Below are positions 24,521-61,958 of a stretch of DNA of 64,000 bases, one piece after another; position 1 is the first letter of the stretch; each line of letters opens with the position of its first letter. Origin of the DNA: Pedobacter sp. HDW13. GTDB lineage: Bacteria > Bacteroidota > Bacteroidia > Sphingobacteriales > Sphingobacteriaceae. Both the position numbers and the translations under genes were made by a program. The notes under the pieces are model-generated. The model saw only the letters and a program-made list of their open reading frames with translations, made no database searches and was not told the DNA's origin. The DNA lies in the NCBI RefSeq assembly GCF_011303555.1, contig NZ_CP049868.1:2356001-2420000 (forward strand), read 5' to 3'.

Positions 24521-24538
24521 TTAACACATATTTAACAT
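24521..24538 (+). promoter_or_regulatory. Pho-box-like tandem TTAACA repeat before the PhoR-like kinase
   Basis: TTAACA at 24521-24526 and TTAACAT at 24532-24538 are spaced exactly 11 bases start to start. That is the period at which PhoB/PhoP-type regulators bind direct repeats. The kinase start is 20 bases downstream. The same arrangement stands before the phosphate transport operon. Binding is inferred. Confidence 0.5.
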
Positions 24539-24557
24539 AAAAGCTTTAAATTGCCAC

Positions 24558-25583
24558 ATGAAATTAAGTGTGCTGGTTTTGTTTACTGCCCTTGCCGTAG
24601 GTCTATCTATTGGTATGGTTAATTTTTACTTTCAGCATAGCTGGTATTACCTGGCTATCTCTTTCGGTGTATCGTTTCTAAGCAGTTTCCTCGTTTTTTA
24701 TTATCTGCTCGAAAAATACATCTATACCAAAATTAAACTCATTTATAAGCTTATTCATAACCTTAAATTAGGTAAAGATTTAAAAGATGCCCTTGGTGAG
24801 TATGTAAGCTCCGATCCAATTAATGATGTAGAGCAGGAAGTGAAAGAATGGGCCGGTGCGAAGAAAAAGGAAATCGACTTGCTTAAAAAGCAGGAGCAAT
24901 TTAGGAGAGAGTTCCTTTCCAATGTTTCGCACGAGTTTAAAACACCGCTTTTTGCTATTCAGGGTTATATCGAAACCTTGCAGGATTGTTTGGTAGACGA
25001 TCCGGATCAGGCTGTGTTATTTTTAAAAAAGGCCGAAAACAACGTAGAGCGTTTGAGTTACCTGATTAACGATCTGGATGCCATTTCGAAGCTGGAAACA
25101 GGCGAATCGCCCATCAATTACCAGAAATTTGATTTTGTGCAACTGGCCAAAGAGGTGATGGAAAACCTGGAAGACAGGGCGGAGAGCAAAAACATTAAAC
25201 TTTTCTTTAAAGATAAATATACTGCCATAACTCCCGTTTCTGCCGATCGGGAAAAGATACGTCAGGTGTTGATTAACCTGATGGTAAACAGTATTAAATA
25301 TGGGATTGATGGAGGCGAAACAGCCATTAAGATTTTCGAATTGCACGATCAGGTTTTGATTGAAGTTACCGATAACGGAATTGGCATTGAAGAAAAGCAT
25401 CTGGCGAGGTTATTTGAACGTTTTTACCGCATCGATACCCATCGTGCGCGCGAGGTAGGCGGAACCGGTTTAGGTTTAGCCATTGTAAAACACATTTTAG
25501 AGGCACACCAACAAACCATATCGGTAAGAAGTACACCTGGTATCGGAACAACCTTTGCATTTACTTTGCAAAAGGGAGGGTAA
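24558..25583 (+). CDS. PhoR-like sensor histidine kinase
   Basis: A 341-residue kinase with two N-terminal membrane segments (about residues 3-24 and 30-51) and almost no periplasmic loop. This fits PhoR, which senses phosphate through the transporter and PhoU and not by ligand binding. After a linker comes the H-box [20 protein letters not shown] with His125, in the PhoR-style context, then HATPase_c (N-box [29 protein letters not shown]). No response regulator adjoins. A PhoU-like DUF47 gene and a phosphate transporter follow, which supports a role in phosphate control. PhoR by name is an inference. Confidence 0.82.
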
Positions 25584-25721
25584 GAACACTATATTTTTAG
25601 CTGTTCAAAACCAAATCTAAAAAATTAGTTTAAGGCTTACGGGCCTCTCTGCGCGTAAAATCCTGACATTCTTATTGGTAATGCGATTTTTGATGTTGTT
25701 TTTGTTAATATAATTAAGAAA

Positions 25722-25755
25722 TTAACATTAACTTAACATTGAGCTTGTAGCTTTG
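25722..25755 (+). promoter_or_regulatory. Pho-box-like repeat with -7 element before the phosphate transport operon
   Basis: TTAACA at 25722-25727 and TTAACA at 25733-25738 have an 11-base period and lie just upstream of TAGCTTTG (25748-25755), a match to the -7 consensus TAnnTTTG. The repeats occupy the place of the -33 element, as expected for an activator of the PhoB family. Transcription would begin shortly before the ATG at 25775. Confidence 0.6.
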
Positions 25756-25774: not shown

Positions 25775-26416
25775 ATGAACAATATTTTTAAGTTCTTTAC
25801 GCCTCAAGACAGAAAGTTTCATCCACTGTTCGAGCAGGCAGGAAGCAATGCATTAAAAATTGCTGAAGCCCTTTTAGCAATGGTGAGCACAGCCGATGCG
25901 GAAAACAGAAAAGCCATTTTTAAAGAAATTGAGCGACTGGAGCATGTAGGTGATGATATTACCCATTCAATTTTTCTTGAGTTAAGCCGGAACTTTATTA
26001 CGCCTTTTGACCGTGAAGATATTCACCAACTGGCTACTGCTGTTGATGATGTTGCCGATTACATTTATGGCACAGCTAACCGCATGCAGATGTATAACAT
26101 GAATACCATTAATGAGCCGATTGTTAAAATTGCCGAGCTTTTGGTAGAAATGTGTACCGATATTGATAAAGCGATTAAAGAATTGCGCAATTTCAAAAAT
26201 ATCCGTGTTATTGCTGATGCTTGTATCCGCATTAACAGCGGCGAAAACCAGGCTGATTATGTATTTACCCTAGCGGTAGCCCGTTTGTTCGAATACGAAA
26301 CCAATGCAATTGAATTAATTAAACAAAAAGAGGTTTTACAAACGATAGAGAAAGCAACAGATAAGTGCGAGGATGTAGCGAATGTGCTTGAAACTATCTT
26401 GGTTAAAAACGCTTAA
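25775..26416 (+). CDS. DUF47 (PhoU-like) phosphate transport accessory protein
   Basis: A 213-residue all-helical protein of the DUF47 family, related to PhoU. Repeated E/D-rich metal-binding stretches are visible (IERLEHVGDDITHSIF, AVDDVADYIYGT, TDKCEDVANVLETILV). DUF47 proteins accompany Pit-type transporters and are thought to regulate them. The transporter gene follows after 12 bases. Confidence 0.92.
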   Translation: MNNIFKFFTPQDRKFHPLFEQAGSNALKIAEALLAMVSTADAENRKAIFKEIERLEHVGDDITHSIFLELSRNFITPFDREDIHQLATAVDDVADYIYGTANRMQMYNMNTINEPIVKIAELLVEMCTDIDKAIKELRNFKNIRVIADACIRINSGENQADYVFTLAVARLFEYETNAIELIKQKEVLQTIEKATDKCEDVANVLETILVKNA

Positions 26417-26428
26417 TAAAAAACAAAC

Positions 26429-27439
26429 ATGGTAACTACCTTACTGGTTGTTGTTGTAATTCTGGCTATTGCTTTCGATTATATTAACGGTTTCCACGAT
26501 GCCGCTAACTCGATTGCAACAGTTGTTTCTACAAAAGTACTTACGCCTTTTCAGGCGGTTTTATGGGCTGCGTTATTTAATTTCGCTGCTTATTTTTATT
26601 TTACCGACCACAAAGTGGCCAATACAGTTGCTAAAACTGTAATTGAAAACTACATTACATTAGAGGTTATTCTGGCAGGCTTAGTTGCTGCAATTATCTG
26701 GAACCTTCTAACCTGGTGGTATGGTATTCCTTCCAGCTCATCGCACACCTTAATTGGTGGTTTTGCAGGTGCTGGTATGACACATGCTTTGCTTACAGGC
26801 GCTAGTCCGCTCGATGCCGTAAACATGGGTTATGTAATTAAAATTGTTTCCTTTATTGTGTTGGCTCCGATAATCGGTATGGTAATTTCGGTGGTTTTAA
26901 CGCTTATCATTATCAATGTGTGCCGTTATGCCAAGCCGGCAACAGCCGAAAAATGGTTTAAACGTCTGCAGCTTTTATCATCTGCTGCCTTAAGTTTCTT
27001 CCACGGAGGTAACGATGCTCAAAAAGTAATGGGTATTATTGCAACAGCTTTAATCGCTTCAAAGGTGATTCCTAACTTCGAAGCCATGCCTGCATGGGTT
27101 CCAATTGCCTGTTACTCTGCCATAGCATTAGGTACTATGAGTGGTGGCTGGAAAATTGTAAAAACCATGGGATCGAAAATTACCAAGGTAACTGCACTTG
27201 AAGGTGTTGCTGCCGAAGGTGCTGGTGCGGTAACATTGGGTATTACCGAACACTTCGGTATTCCGGTTTCTACTACGCATACCATAACCGGTTCTATTGT
27301 AGGGGTAGGGGTTGTTAAAAGTGTATCGGCAGTACGTTGGGGTGTAACCATTAACCTGATTTGGGCATGGATTTTAACCATCCCGGTTTCAGCTACACTG
27401 GCAGCCATTATTTACGCGGTGATATACTACTTAAAATAA
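26429..27439 (+). CDS. pit: PiT family inorganic phosphate transporter
   Basis: A 336-residue, highly hydrophobic transporter with about ten membrane segments. It carries the duplicated PiT signature: FDYINGFHDAANSIATVVST near the N-terminus and SFFHGGNDAQKVMGI in the second half. SSSHTLIGGFAG and STTHTITGSIVGVG are the matching paired motifs. It imports metal-phosphate or phosphate driven by the ion gradient. It forms an operon with the DUF47 gene and ends at a clear terminator. Confidence 0.95.
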   Translation: MVTTLLVVVVILAIAFDYINGFHDAANSIATVVSTKVLTPFQAVLWAALFNFAAYFYFTDHKVANTVAKTVIENYITLEVILAGLVAAIIWNLLTWWYGIPSSSSHTLIGGFAGAGMTHALLTGASPLDAVNMGYVIKIVSFIVLAPIIGMVISVVLTLIIINVCRYAKPATAEKWFKRLQLLSSAALSFFHGGNDAQKVMGIIATALIASKVIPNFEAMPAWVPIACYSAIALGTMSGGWKIVKTMGSKITKVTALEGVAAEGAGAVTLGITEHFGIPVSTTHTITGSIVGVGVVKSVSAVRWGVTINLIWAWILTIPVSATLAAIIYAVIYYLK

Positions 27440-59264: not shown

Positions 59265-61085
59265 ATGAAGAAAAGAAGTTTTTGGTTAATTACAGTTTTA
59301 ATGACAGTGGCGCTGCTCGGTGTGTTTGTAATGCAATTGTATTACATCCGGGAGTCCTATAAACTAAAATCCCAGCTTTTTGACGAACAGGTAAACCAAA
59401 CACTTTCTACTGTTGTGAATAAAATTCAGCGTAGAAATGTTGCCGATCACTTAAACCGGAAAGATGCCGAAAATAAGCTTAAGCAAATTCAGGATTCGAG
59501 ACAGCGTACGCTGGATATTAAAGACCTGCGGCAGCAATATGTGCAGGAAGCAGAATTGCGGCAGGTTGAAAGGGAAAACCAGATTGAAGCTTACCTGAAC
59601 CAACAGGATAGTATTATCAGGGTATCGTACCGTGCGCCCAATGTAATTTCGGAAAGAGAATATACCTCACTAACATCGAAGAACGGCGATAAGCTCGATT
59701 TGCAGATGGATGCATTTATTGATATCAAAAGTTTGATATTAAAAGGCTATAGCATGCGCAGCAAGCCTTTTTCTACTCCACCAAAGGCATTTGAATTTAA
59801 AAGCTTGCAAAACTTGCCCGATACTTTACGGTATCTGGTTTTCGATCCGAGAGATGGTAGCCCGGGTTTTGCAAATGTGCCAAAAATCCCGACTGATTTA
59901 GACAAGAAATTTAAGCGTGATGATGAAATCGCAAAGAAAAAACTCGAACTGAAAATTGCTGCCTTAGGAAAGGATACTTTTTCTTACAATCGCTTAAGCA
60001 TGGTTGAAGATGTGTCGAAAGAATTGCAGGAAACCAATGTTCCCATTTATAAGCGTATTAATTTCGATTCGCTGGGTAGCATACTGCGGGCAGAGCTTTT
60101 AGCCAATAACATTACGCTTGATCCATCTTACCGGGTTTCTTTGGCCAAAAAAGATTCAACCATCTTTATGACCGCTTCGAATGTAAAGGGAGAGTTTTTA
60201 CCAGAAAACACGTACAAAATACCACTTTTTGGAAACGATATTTTTCGCGATCCGGGAATGCTTTTTGTGAGTTTCCCAGATAAAACCTCGGCAATTGTTT
60301 CTAATTTGAGCGCAACCTTAGCATCGTCGGTTGGCTTGTTGCTGGTGCTGGTTTTTATCTTTTCTTATACACTTTATGCTATTTTAAAGCAAAAGAAAAT
60401 ATCAGAGATGAAAACTGATTTCATCAACAACATGACCCACGAGTTTAAAACCCCCGTAGCCACCATCATGATTGCGAGCGAGGCTTTAAAAGACCCTGAG
60501 GTAACCGAAGATAAAACGCGGTTAAAACGCCTGGCAGGAATAATCTACGATGAAAACGTTCGCCTTGGTAGCCATATAGAGCGGGTTTTAAGCATAGCCA
60601 GGTTAGAAAAAGGCGAACTTAAAATGGAAAATACCGAGGTAGATATGAACGATCTGATTATGATTGTTCTGGATAGTATGGAGTTGCAGCTGCAAAAAAG
60701 AAATGCAGTAATTACAGTAAATACCAATGCCGAAAATGCCATTGTTTTTGGCGATGAACTGCATTTATCAAATGTAATTTACAACCTGATTGATAATGCC
60801 AATAAATACAGTGCCGATACGCCAGATATAACCATTACCACACGAAATACCAGCAAGCATTTAATTATCGAAATTGCCGATAAAGGTATAGGCATGACCA
60901 AAGAGCAGGCCAAGCGAATTTTCGATCAGTTTTACAGGGTGCCCACTGGGAACCTGCACGATGTTAAAGGTTTTGGTCTGGGGTTAAATTACGTTCAGGA
61001 TATCATTAAAAAATTAAACGGAACCGTTAAAGTAAGTAGCGAAAAAGATAAAGGAACTACGTTCGAAATATCGTTACCTTTATAA
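59265..61085 (+). CDS. RprX-like membrane sensor histidine kinase
   Basis: A 606-residue kinase. It has two membrane segments (about 4-25 and 345-370) with a large helical periplasmic sensor between them (KLKQIQDSRQRTLDIKDLRQ). The H-box has His392 (FINNMTHEFKTPVATIMIAS). HATPase_c contains NLIDNANKYS, DKGIGMT and GFGLGLNYVQDI. It is followed by an OmpR-type regulator gene (about 180 bases later). It resembles the Bacteroidota RprX-RprY system. The signal is unknown. Confidence 0.9.
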   Translation: MKKRSFWLITVLMTVALLGVFVMQLYYIRESYKLKSQLFDEQVNQTLSTVVNKIQRRNVADHLNRKDAENKLKQIQDSRQRTLDIKDLRQQYVQEAELRQVERENQIEAYLNQQDSIIRVSYRAPNVISEREYTSLTSKNGDKLDLQMDAFIDIKSLILKGYSMRSKPFSTPPKAFEFKSLQNLPDTLRYLVFDPRDGSPGFANVPKIPTDLDKKFKRDDEIAKKKLELKIAALGKDTFSYNRLSMVEDVSKELQETNVPIYKRINFDSLGSILRAELLANNITLDPSYRVSLAKKDSTIFMTASNVKGEFLPENTYKIPLFGNDIFRDPGMLFVSFPDKTSAIVSNLSATLASSVGLLLVLVFIFSYTLYAILKQKKISEMKTDFINNMTHEFKTPVATIMIASEALKDPEVTEDKTRLKRLAGIIYDENVRLGSHIERVLSIARLEKGELKMENTEVDMNDLIMIVLDSMELQLQKRNAVITVNTNAENAIVFGDELHLSNVIYNLIDNANKYSADTPDITITTRNTSKHLIIEIADKGIGMTKEQAKRIFDQFYRVPTGNLHDVKGFGLGLNYVQDIIKKLNGTVKVSSEKDKGTTFEISLPL

Positions 61086-61262
61086 AGCTGTTAACCATCG
61101 GGACAAAAGCTTGCTTTATCGATACATTAAAAAAGAACAGGTTTAATTTACTTAATATAGTAGCGTATTAATTTAAAGTTACGTATAAATTAAACCGTTA
61201 TGCAGATTTCGAATCAAACTTTCAGTGTAGGTAATGCTACATATGCGAATAAAATTAAGAAA

Positions 61263-61958
61263 ATGAAGAAAATACTTCTGGTAGAAGACGATCCAAACTT
61301 AGGTTTATTATTACAGGACTATTTACAACTAAAGGGTAAATTTGATGTGGTGCTGTGTACTGACGGGGAAGAAGGGCTGCGGGCTTTTAGCAAGCAGAAC
61401 TTCGATTTATGCATTTTGGATGTAATGATGCCCAAAAAGGATGGCTTTACCTTAGGTAAAGATATTAGAAAGGCTAATGCACACGTGCCAATTATTTTTG
61501 CAACTGCTAAAACTATGTTAGAAGATAAGGCTGCGGCATACGATTTGGGCGGTGATGATTACATTACCAAACCTTTCCGTATTGAAGAGCTTTTGTTGCG
61601 CATAAACGCCATGTTTAAACGTGTGGCCAATAAAACAGATAGTGCCGATGAATCAGCAGAAACACAGTTTTCCATTGGTCAGTATCATTTCGATTATACT
61701 ACACAGATTATTACCAGTAACGATCTTCAGCAAAAACTGTCTACCAAAGAGGCAGAGTTGTTGCGTTTGTTGTGCCTGAAAAAGAATACCGTGTTAACCC
61801 GTGAAGAGGCTTTATTGAGTATCTGGCACGATGATAACTACTTTAATGGTCGCAGTATGGATGTATTTTTAAGCAAATTGCGCAAATACCTGCGCGCCGA
61901 TCCGGCGGTTGAAATTATCAATGTACACGGAAAAGGGTATAAGTTATTGGTGAATTAG
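61263..61958 (+). CDS. OmpR-family response regulator (RprY-like)
   Basis: 231 residues from ATG 61263 (MKKILLVEDDPNLGLLLQDY); an in-frame ATG at 61200 adds an atypical 21-residue extension and is rejected. The receiver has Asp in LCILDVMMPKKDG and Lys in YITKPFR. The winged-helix DNA-binding domain carries LSTKEAELLRLLCLKKNTVL and NGRSMDVFLSKLRKYLRADP. It is the partner of the preceding kinase. Confidence 0.92.
   Translation: MKKILLVEDDPNLGLLLQDYLQLKGKFDVVLCTDGEEGLRAFSKQNFDLCILDVMMPKKDGFTLGKDIRKANAHVPIIFATAKTMLEDKAAAYDLGGDDYITKPFRIEELLLRINAMFKRVANKTDSADESAETQFSIGQYHFDYTTQIITSNDLQQKLSTKEAELLRLLCLKKNTVLTREEALLSIWHDDNYFNGRSMDVFLSKLRKYLRADPAVEIINVHGKGYKLLVN

Follow-up and report, generated by a model that had tools for sequence, protein, structure and literature searches.

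Two TTAACA dyads at a phoR-DUF47-pit locus

The window analyzed here is a 64,000-nucleotide stretch of the 6.38 Mb one-contig genome of the soil bacterium Pedobacter sp. HDW13. It encodes, on the plus strand, a 341-aa sensor histidine kinase (24558-25583) containing HisKA and HATPase_c domains and two N-terminal hydrophobic segments, in which no PAS domain was found. Downstream on the same strand are a DUF47/PhoU_div protein (25775-26416; PF01865, E 1.2e-23), 99% identical to the DUF47 proteins of P. soli and P. kyungheensis, and a Pit-type phosphate transporter (26429-27439; PF01384, E 2.8e-89), whose gene directly follows that of DUF47 in a probable operon. PstC is absent from the genome, leaving Pit as the sole phosphate importer identified here. 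We rejected the candidates for PstS, as the only PstS-fold matches in the genome were a member of an exbB/tonB-like operon and a LysR-type regulator. The window also contains a second two-component pair (59265-61085 and 61200-61958), the regulator of which is RprY-like, at 304 bits against an RprY model cut-off of 370, and is not PhoB.

Both the kinase and DUF47-pit are preceded by an exact TTAACA-N5-TTAACA dyad, at 24521-24537 and 25722-25738 respectively. All four half-sites (24521 and 24532, 25722 and 25733) are exact and on the plus strand, bearing out the exact 11-base period described in an earlier sequence-only reading of this locus. That reading also had the second dyad abutting a perfect TAnnTTTG box; the box is indeed perfect (TAGCTTTG, 25748-25755, + strand), but 9 nt lie between the two. 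The kinase dyad is likewise followed after 9 nt by a putative -7 element, TAAATTGC (24547-24554, + strand), which is weaker than TAGCTTTG. As TAnnTTTG has been placed at -12 to -5 (PMC9723704), the half-sites fall at about -38/-33 and -27/-22, and thus the dyad occupies the -33 region, in agreement with the proposal that it takes the place of the -33 element. Separately, we note that TAnnTTGY (SM5), a variant found in Flavobacterium psychrophilum and assigned in that species to an alternative sigma factor (PMC9723704), fits TAAATTGC better than TAnnTTTG does.

Chance or A+T-rich composition might be invoked for such sequences in a window of 41% GC, and the relaxed dyad (2 mismatches) is uninformative, being no commoner in the window than in shuffles. 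Exact pairs, however, are expected in the window at a mean of only 0.053 over both strands (300 dinucleotide shuffles), with P(>=2)=0.003, and a pattern search of the genome gives 11 exact dyads versus 4 for a backwards control. Given also its retention across genera with diverged flanks and the phylum-wide counts below, we regard chance as practically untenable overall, and for the 25722 dyad it is already refuted.

Conservation of the dyads

We looked for a dyad in sense within 150 nt upstream of DUF47 in 80 Sphingobacteriaceae loci and found one in 77; of the 523 other genes that these loci contain, 3 have one. The gap to the -7 box is near-constant in these relatives, mostly the same 9 nt. 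In distant genera the flanks have diverged, and conservation is limited to the half-sites, the -7 box and part of the spacer. At the kinase, 27 of 63 loci have an exact dyad and several more a version with a single mismatch, and nearly all of these belong to one Pedobacter clade in which the dyad lies 37-38 nt upstream of the ATG amid diverging flanks. Across the same 63 loci, the P. cryoconitis clade lacks the dyad yet keeps the core promoter TAAATTGC, and beyond this clade the dyad is mostly absent. This distribution, family-wide for the pit box and restricted to one clade for the kinase box, suggests that the pit box is old and that the kinase box was either gained later or lost elsewhere.

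As the TTAACA pairs sit in the -33 region beside a good -7 box, they could be a form of the -33 element that is common in ordinary Pedobacter promoters, and no operator at all. A set of 84 TAnnTTTG promoters showed no general TTAAC signal, and the few occurrences, at -26 and -15, correspond to the box positions in regions that were partly picked for boxes; nor does the same set support a lone TTAACA as a general -33 element. Together with the scarcity of the dyad before other genes and a phoB promoter (below) whose best half-sites are farther upstream yet in phase, these observations make an ordinary promoter variant very unlikely.

To assess the dyad across the phylum, we searched 296 Bacteroidota genomes for the exact composite motif TTAACA-N5-TTAACA-N9-TAnnTTTG and its backwards control. 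There were 12 matches in 11 genomes and none for the control. All 12 are intergenic, in sense and 20-42 nt upstream of a gene: five precede DUF47-pit (window included), two precede relatives of the phosphate-cluster TonB receptor, and one each precedes a PstS-type binding protein (PF12849), an OprP-like porin and a beta-propeller protein that we read as belonging to the YncE/phosphatase-like class. For the remaining two, which precede genes for a TetR regulator and a kinase-like protein, no connection to phosphate is obvious. Several of the matches fall outside the class of the window. The motif is therefore not equally common at other sites; equal frequency at random intergenic sites is what the sequence-only reading had named as counting against a Pho box. 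As in Pho boxes, at least two direct repeats of about 11 nt run head-to-tail, they overlap the upstream promoter element (in nearly all relatives the last repeat stops 9 nt short of TAnnTTTG), and they are enriched before phosphate-acquisition genes in both the family and the phylum scans.

A PhoB candidate and its probable pairing with the window kinase

Scoring nine of the ten OmpR-type regulators in the genome against PhoB models identified an orphan response regulator as the best PhoB candidate (genome 5667348-5668037, outside the window and 3.3 Mb from the kinase). It reached 227 bits with TIGR02154 and 220 bits with the Bacteroides PhoB model, compared to 201 and 185 bits for the next of the nine. 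The regulator and the kinase both scored below the NCBIfam equivalog cut-offs (227 of 296 bits for TIGR02154, 235 of 334 for TIGR02966 and 220 of 270 for NF053854); calling them PhoB and PhoR orthologues therefore rests on synteny and a reciprocal best hit and not on equivalog membership.

Relatives of the orphan regulator are present in all 118 phylum genomes searched. In nearly all listed contexts outside Sphingobacteriaceae, the gene next to its orthologue encodes an orthologue of the window kinase, with 37-49% identity to the latter in the contexts listed. Conversely, a kinase from a phoBR pair elsewhere found the window kinase as its best match in this genome (256.6 versus 122.1 bits), so both synteny and reciprocal best hit identify the kinase, PhoR-like in the earlier reading, as PhoR. 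In some of the listed phoBR contexts, the neighbors also include homologues of the two kinds of gene that carry boxes here, encoding the TonB receptor and the beta-helix lipoprotein. Regulator and kinase are not encoded together in this genome or in two other Sphingobacteriaceae; in this family phoB and phoR lie apart, phoR mostly neighboring DUF47-pit, and in Daejeonella an apparent phoU-pst cluster, read by eye, sits between them.

The phoB promoter itself carries the longest array. In 30 Pedobacter genomes it consists of TTAACA-N5-TTAACT-N5-TTAACT-N5-TTGCAT-like repeats followed after 9 nt by TACTTTCG, in the same phase as the pit dyad but two half-sites longer, with the best half-sites farther upstream. 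The 11-nt period is exact in the pit, kinase, phoB (four half-sites) and small-RNA (two to three, below) promoters. Near phoB we also observed three tandem genes for paralogous small secreted proteins sharing NVNIGSQPxWGPTGYDxVDYYYxPD (family members at genome 5671017-5672855 and 5252446-5252967).

Based on the conservation of the motif, its phosphate-gene targets, the PhoB/PhoR pairing and the phoB promoter array, we predict that the boxes are a Bacteroidota PhoB operator. Another OmpR-family regulator with the same half-site could instead use them, with phosphate genes as only part of its targets, for example one that answers envelope stress or redox in the manner of E. coli ArcA, which has a similar motif. 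The PhoP motif of Riemerella anatipestifer is noted as ArcA-like with 583 sites (PMC9603813), and some exact boxes in the present genome precede non-phosphate genes. Across the phylum, however, most exact composite matches are at phosphate genes, and the longest array is in the promoter of the PhoB-like regulator itself; we consider such a regulator unlikely.

A wider predicted regulon

The sequence-only reading had envisaged a regulon of two units, which our searches suggest is too small. An exact dyad with the -7 element CAGTTTTG lies upstream of ppk1, and another precedes a beta-helix lipoprotein gene between two TonB receptor genes (genome 4065227-4070908) that themselves have boxes among the better composite matches. 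Also among the better matches is one before a metallophosphoesterase gene (genome 6086314), and boxes precede sigma/FecR genes (genome 6094497 and 6095266) upstream of a SusC-SusD-alkaline phosphatase/GDPD cluster. From the sequences, the regulon thus appears to extend to ppk1, the TonB/lipoprotein island and the alkaline phosphatase-SusCD cluster. With as many as 3 mismatches allowed, the genome contains 61 matches to the composite motif versus 26 to the control, so individual weak sites are unsure. Five of the exact dyads are located before genes without an obvious phosphate role. Another exact dyad, upstream of an OprP-like gene, is in reverse orientation and was left out of the Pho promoters; the protein has no Pfam match.

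The box-bearing gene classes match those that Flavobacterium johnsoniae induces when phosphate is depleted (PMC8115612). In that species, the PHO regulon comprises PhoBR beside a TonB receptor and beta-helix lipoprotein, an alkaline phosphatase/SusCD/FecR cluster and a polyphosphate-kinase-like gene, most of them induced by phosphate depletion; no operator was described, and the main text does not contain 'pho box', 'motif' or 'promoter' (PMC8115612). PhoBR is together there whereas phoB and phoR are split in Pedobacter. As side observations, the clustering of metallophosphoesterase, alkaline phosphatase/GDPD, SusD, SusC, FecR and ECF sigma genes at genome 6085407-6095198 resembles PUSII of F. 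johnsoniae, and two-mismatch composite sites at genome 59616, 5119483 and 5989552 precede HAD-type-hydrolase-like genes. Elsewhere, two tandem 5S rRNA genes lie downstream of a 23S gene (L152:582-992).

A candidate multicopy small-RNA family in Pedobacter

One good composite match, at genome 4077599, is followed by no gene and precedes a unit of ~76 nt in which an invariant linker joins an A+U-rich hairpin to an intrinsic terminator. The genome has three copies (4077634-4077710, 567333-567405 and 3162180-3162256); the family, with its in-phase TTAAY arrays before TAnnTTTG, was noted at 4077588-4077718, 3162145-3162256 and 567333-567405. In nearly all copies that we read, TAnnTTTG is preceded by two or three TTAAY half-sites with an 11-nt period, and the upstream sequence shows little other conservation. 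The promoters of these paralogues are looser (TTAAY) than the strict TTAACA, so a related regulator is possible there.

A DNA search found the small RNA in 57 of 60 Pedobacter genomes. Under strict filters, covariance-model matches were confined to Pedobacter (3 of 61 family genomes and 2 of 119 class genomes), with one Pedobacter genome in the family sample also lacking a match. Of 20 predicted pairs, eight show compensated changes, all in the terminator stem; because the upstream hairpin is almost invariant, the covariation speaks for the terminator stem and not for that hairpin. No Rfam family matched at or above its gathering score, and the open-access literature yielded nothing direct on a Pedobacter phosphate sRNA. 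We describe the family here as previously unlisted, multicopy and Pedobacter-specific. From its sequence features, we infer that the RNA may be transcribed, phosphate-controlled and a regulator, although 9-mer complementarity to gene start regions gave no target signal (15 matches versus 19 expected).

Discussion

Our results make it very probable that both dyads in the window are operators of the PhoB-like response regulator, presumably phosphorylated by the window kinase in phosphate starvation, with binding and activation predicted from sequence. Upon starvation, PhoR would phosphorylate the regulator encoded at 5667348-5668037, and PhoB~P would bind the TTAACA half-sites head-to-tail, one helical turn (11 nt) apart. 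With the last half-site ending 9 nt before TAnnTTTG, PhoB~P would fill the -33 region (about -38 to -22) and contact or recruit RNA polymerase, leading to more PhoR, DUF47 and Pit. We infer both the occupancy and the polymerase contact by analogy with PhoB and PhoP. As phoR adjoins DUF47-pit in a genome without Pst, one might guess, and no more than guess, that DUF47-Pit feeds the phosphate signal to PhoR.

The PhoP box of Bacillus subtilis consists of tandem TTAACA-like repeats. The Pedobacter box shares with it the TTAACA half-site, the ~11-nt period and two to four tandem copies, so the likeness to the Gram-positive box noted in the sequence-only reading holds for both sequence and period, and the half-sites in the phoB promoter point to a positive autoregulation like that of PhoP. 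Unlike in B. subtilis, the box is joined at a fixed 9-nt gap to the Bacteroidota -7 box TAnnTTTG, the regulator and kinase genes are unlinked, and the targets are Gram-negative phosphate genes. In E. coli, the Pho box comprises two 11-nt direct-repeat units bound head-to-tail in tandem by PhoB, which contacts sigma (PMC4415409). Pedobacter likewise has 11-nt direct repeats in place of the upstream promoter element of phosphate-uptake genes, but its half-site is TTAACA and not CTGTCAT, its genome lacks Pst, and no PAS domain was found in the kinase.

Closer in phylogeny, PhoP of R. anatipestifer (Flavobacteriia), studied for virulence and not phosphate, bound a TTTAACA motif in DAP-seq; this possible counterpart shares the core half-site, the phylum and phoPR autoregulation, and the parts of the report available to us give neither a tandem/-7 grammar nor a phosphate regulon (PMC9603813). 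We found nothing direct on a described Bacteroidota Pho box in open-access papers.

Taken together, a joint reading is possible, if somewhat doubtful as a whole: Pedobacter PhoB would drive lineage-specific, multicopy, trans-acting sRNAs of ~76 nt (three copies here, with in-phase TTAAY half-site promoters), forming a phosphate RNA arm unshared by the other sampled Bacteroidota genera, while DUF47-Pit would replace Pst-PhoU as the partner informing PhoR of phosphate.

For Bacteroidota, a phylum that matters in the turnover of organic phosphorus, TTAACA-N5-TTAACA-N9-TAnnTTTG provides a concrete, predicted operator grammar of phosphate control and allows regulons to be predicted from sequence. 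The analysis also names a likely PhoB partner for an orphan kinase and points out a new small-RNA family that may belong to the phosphate response.
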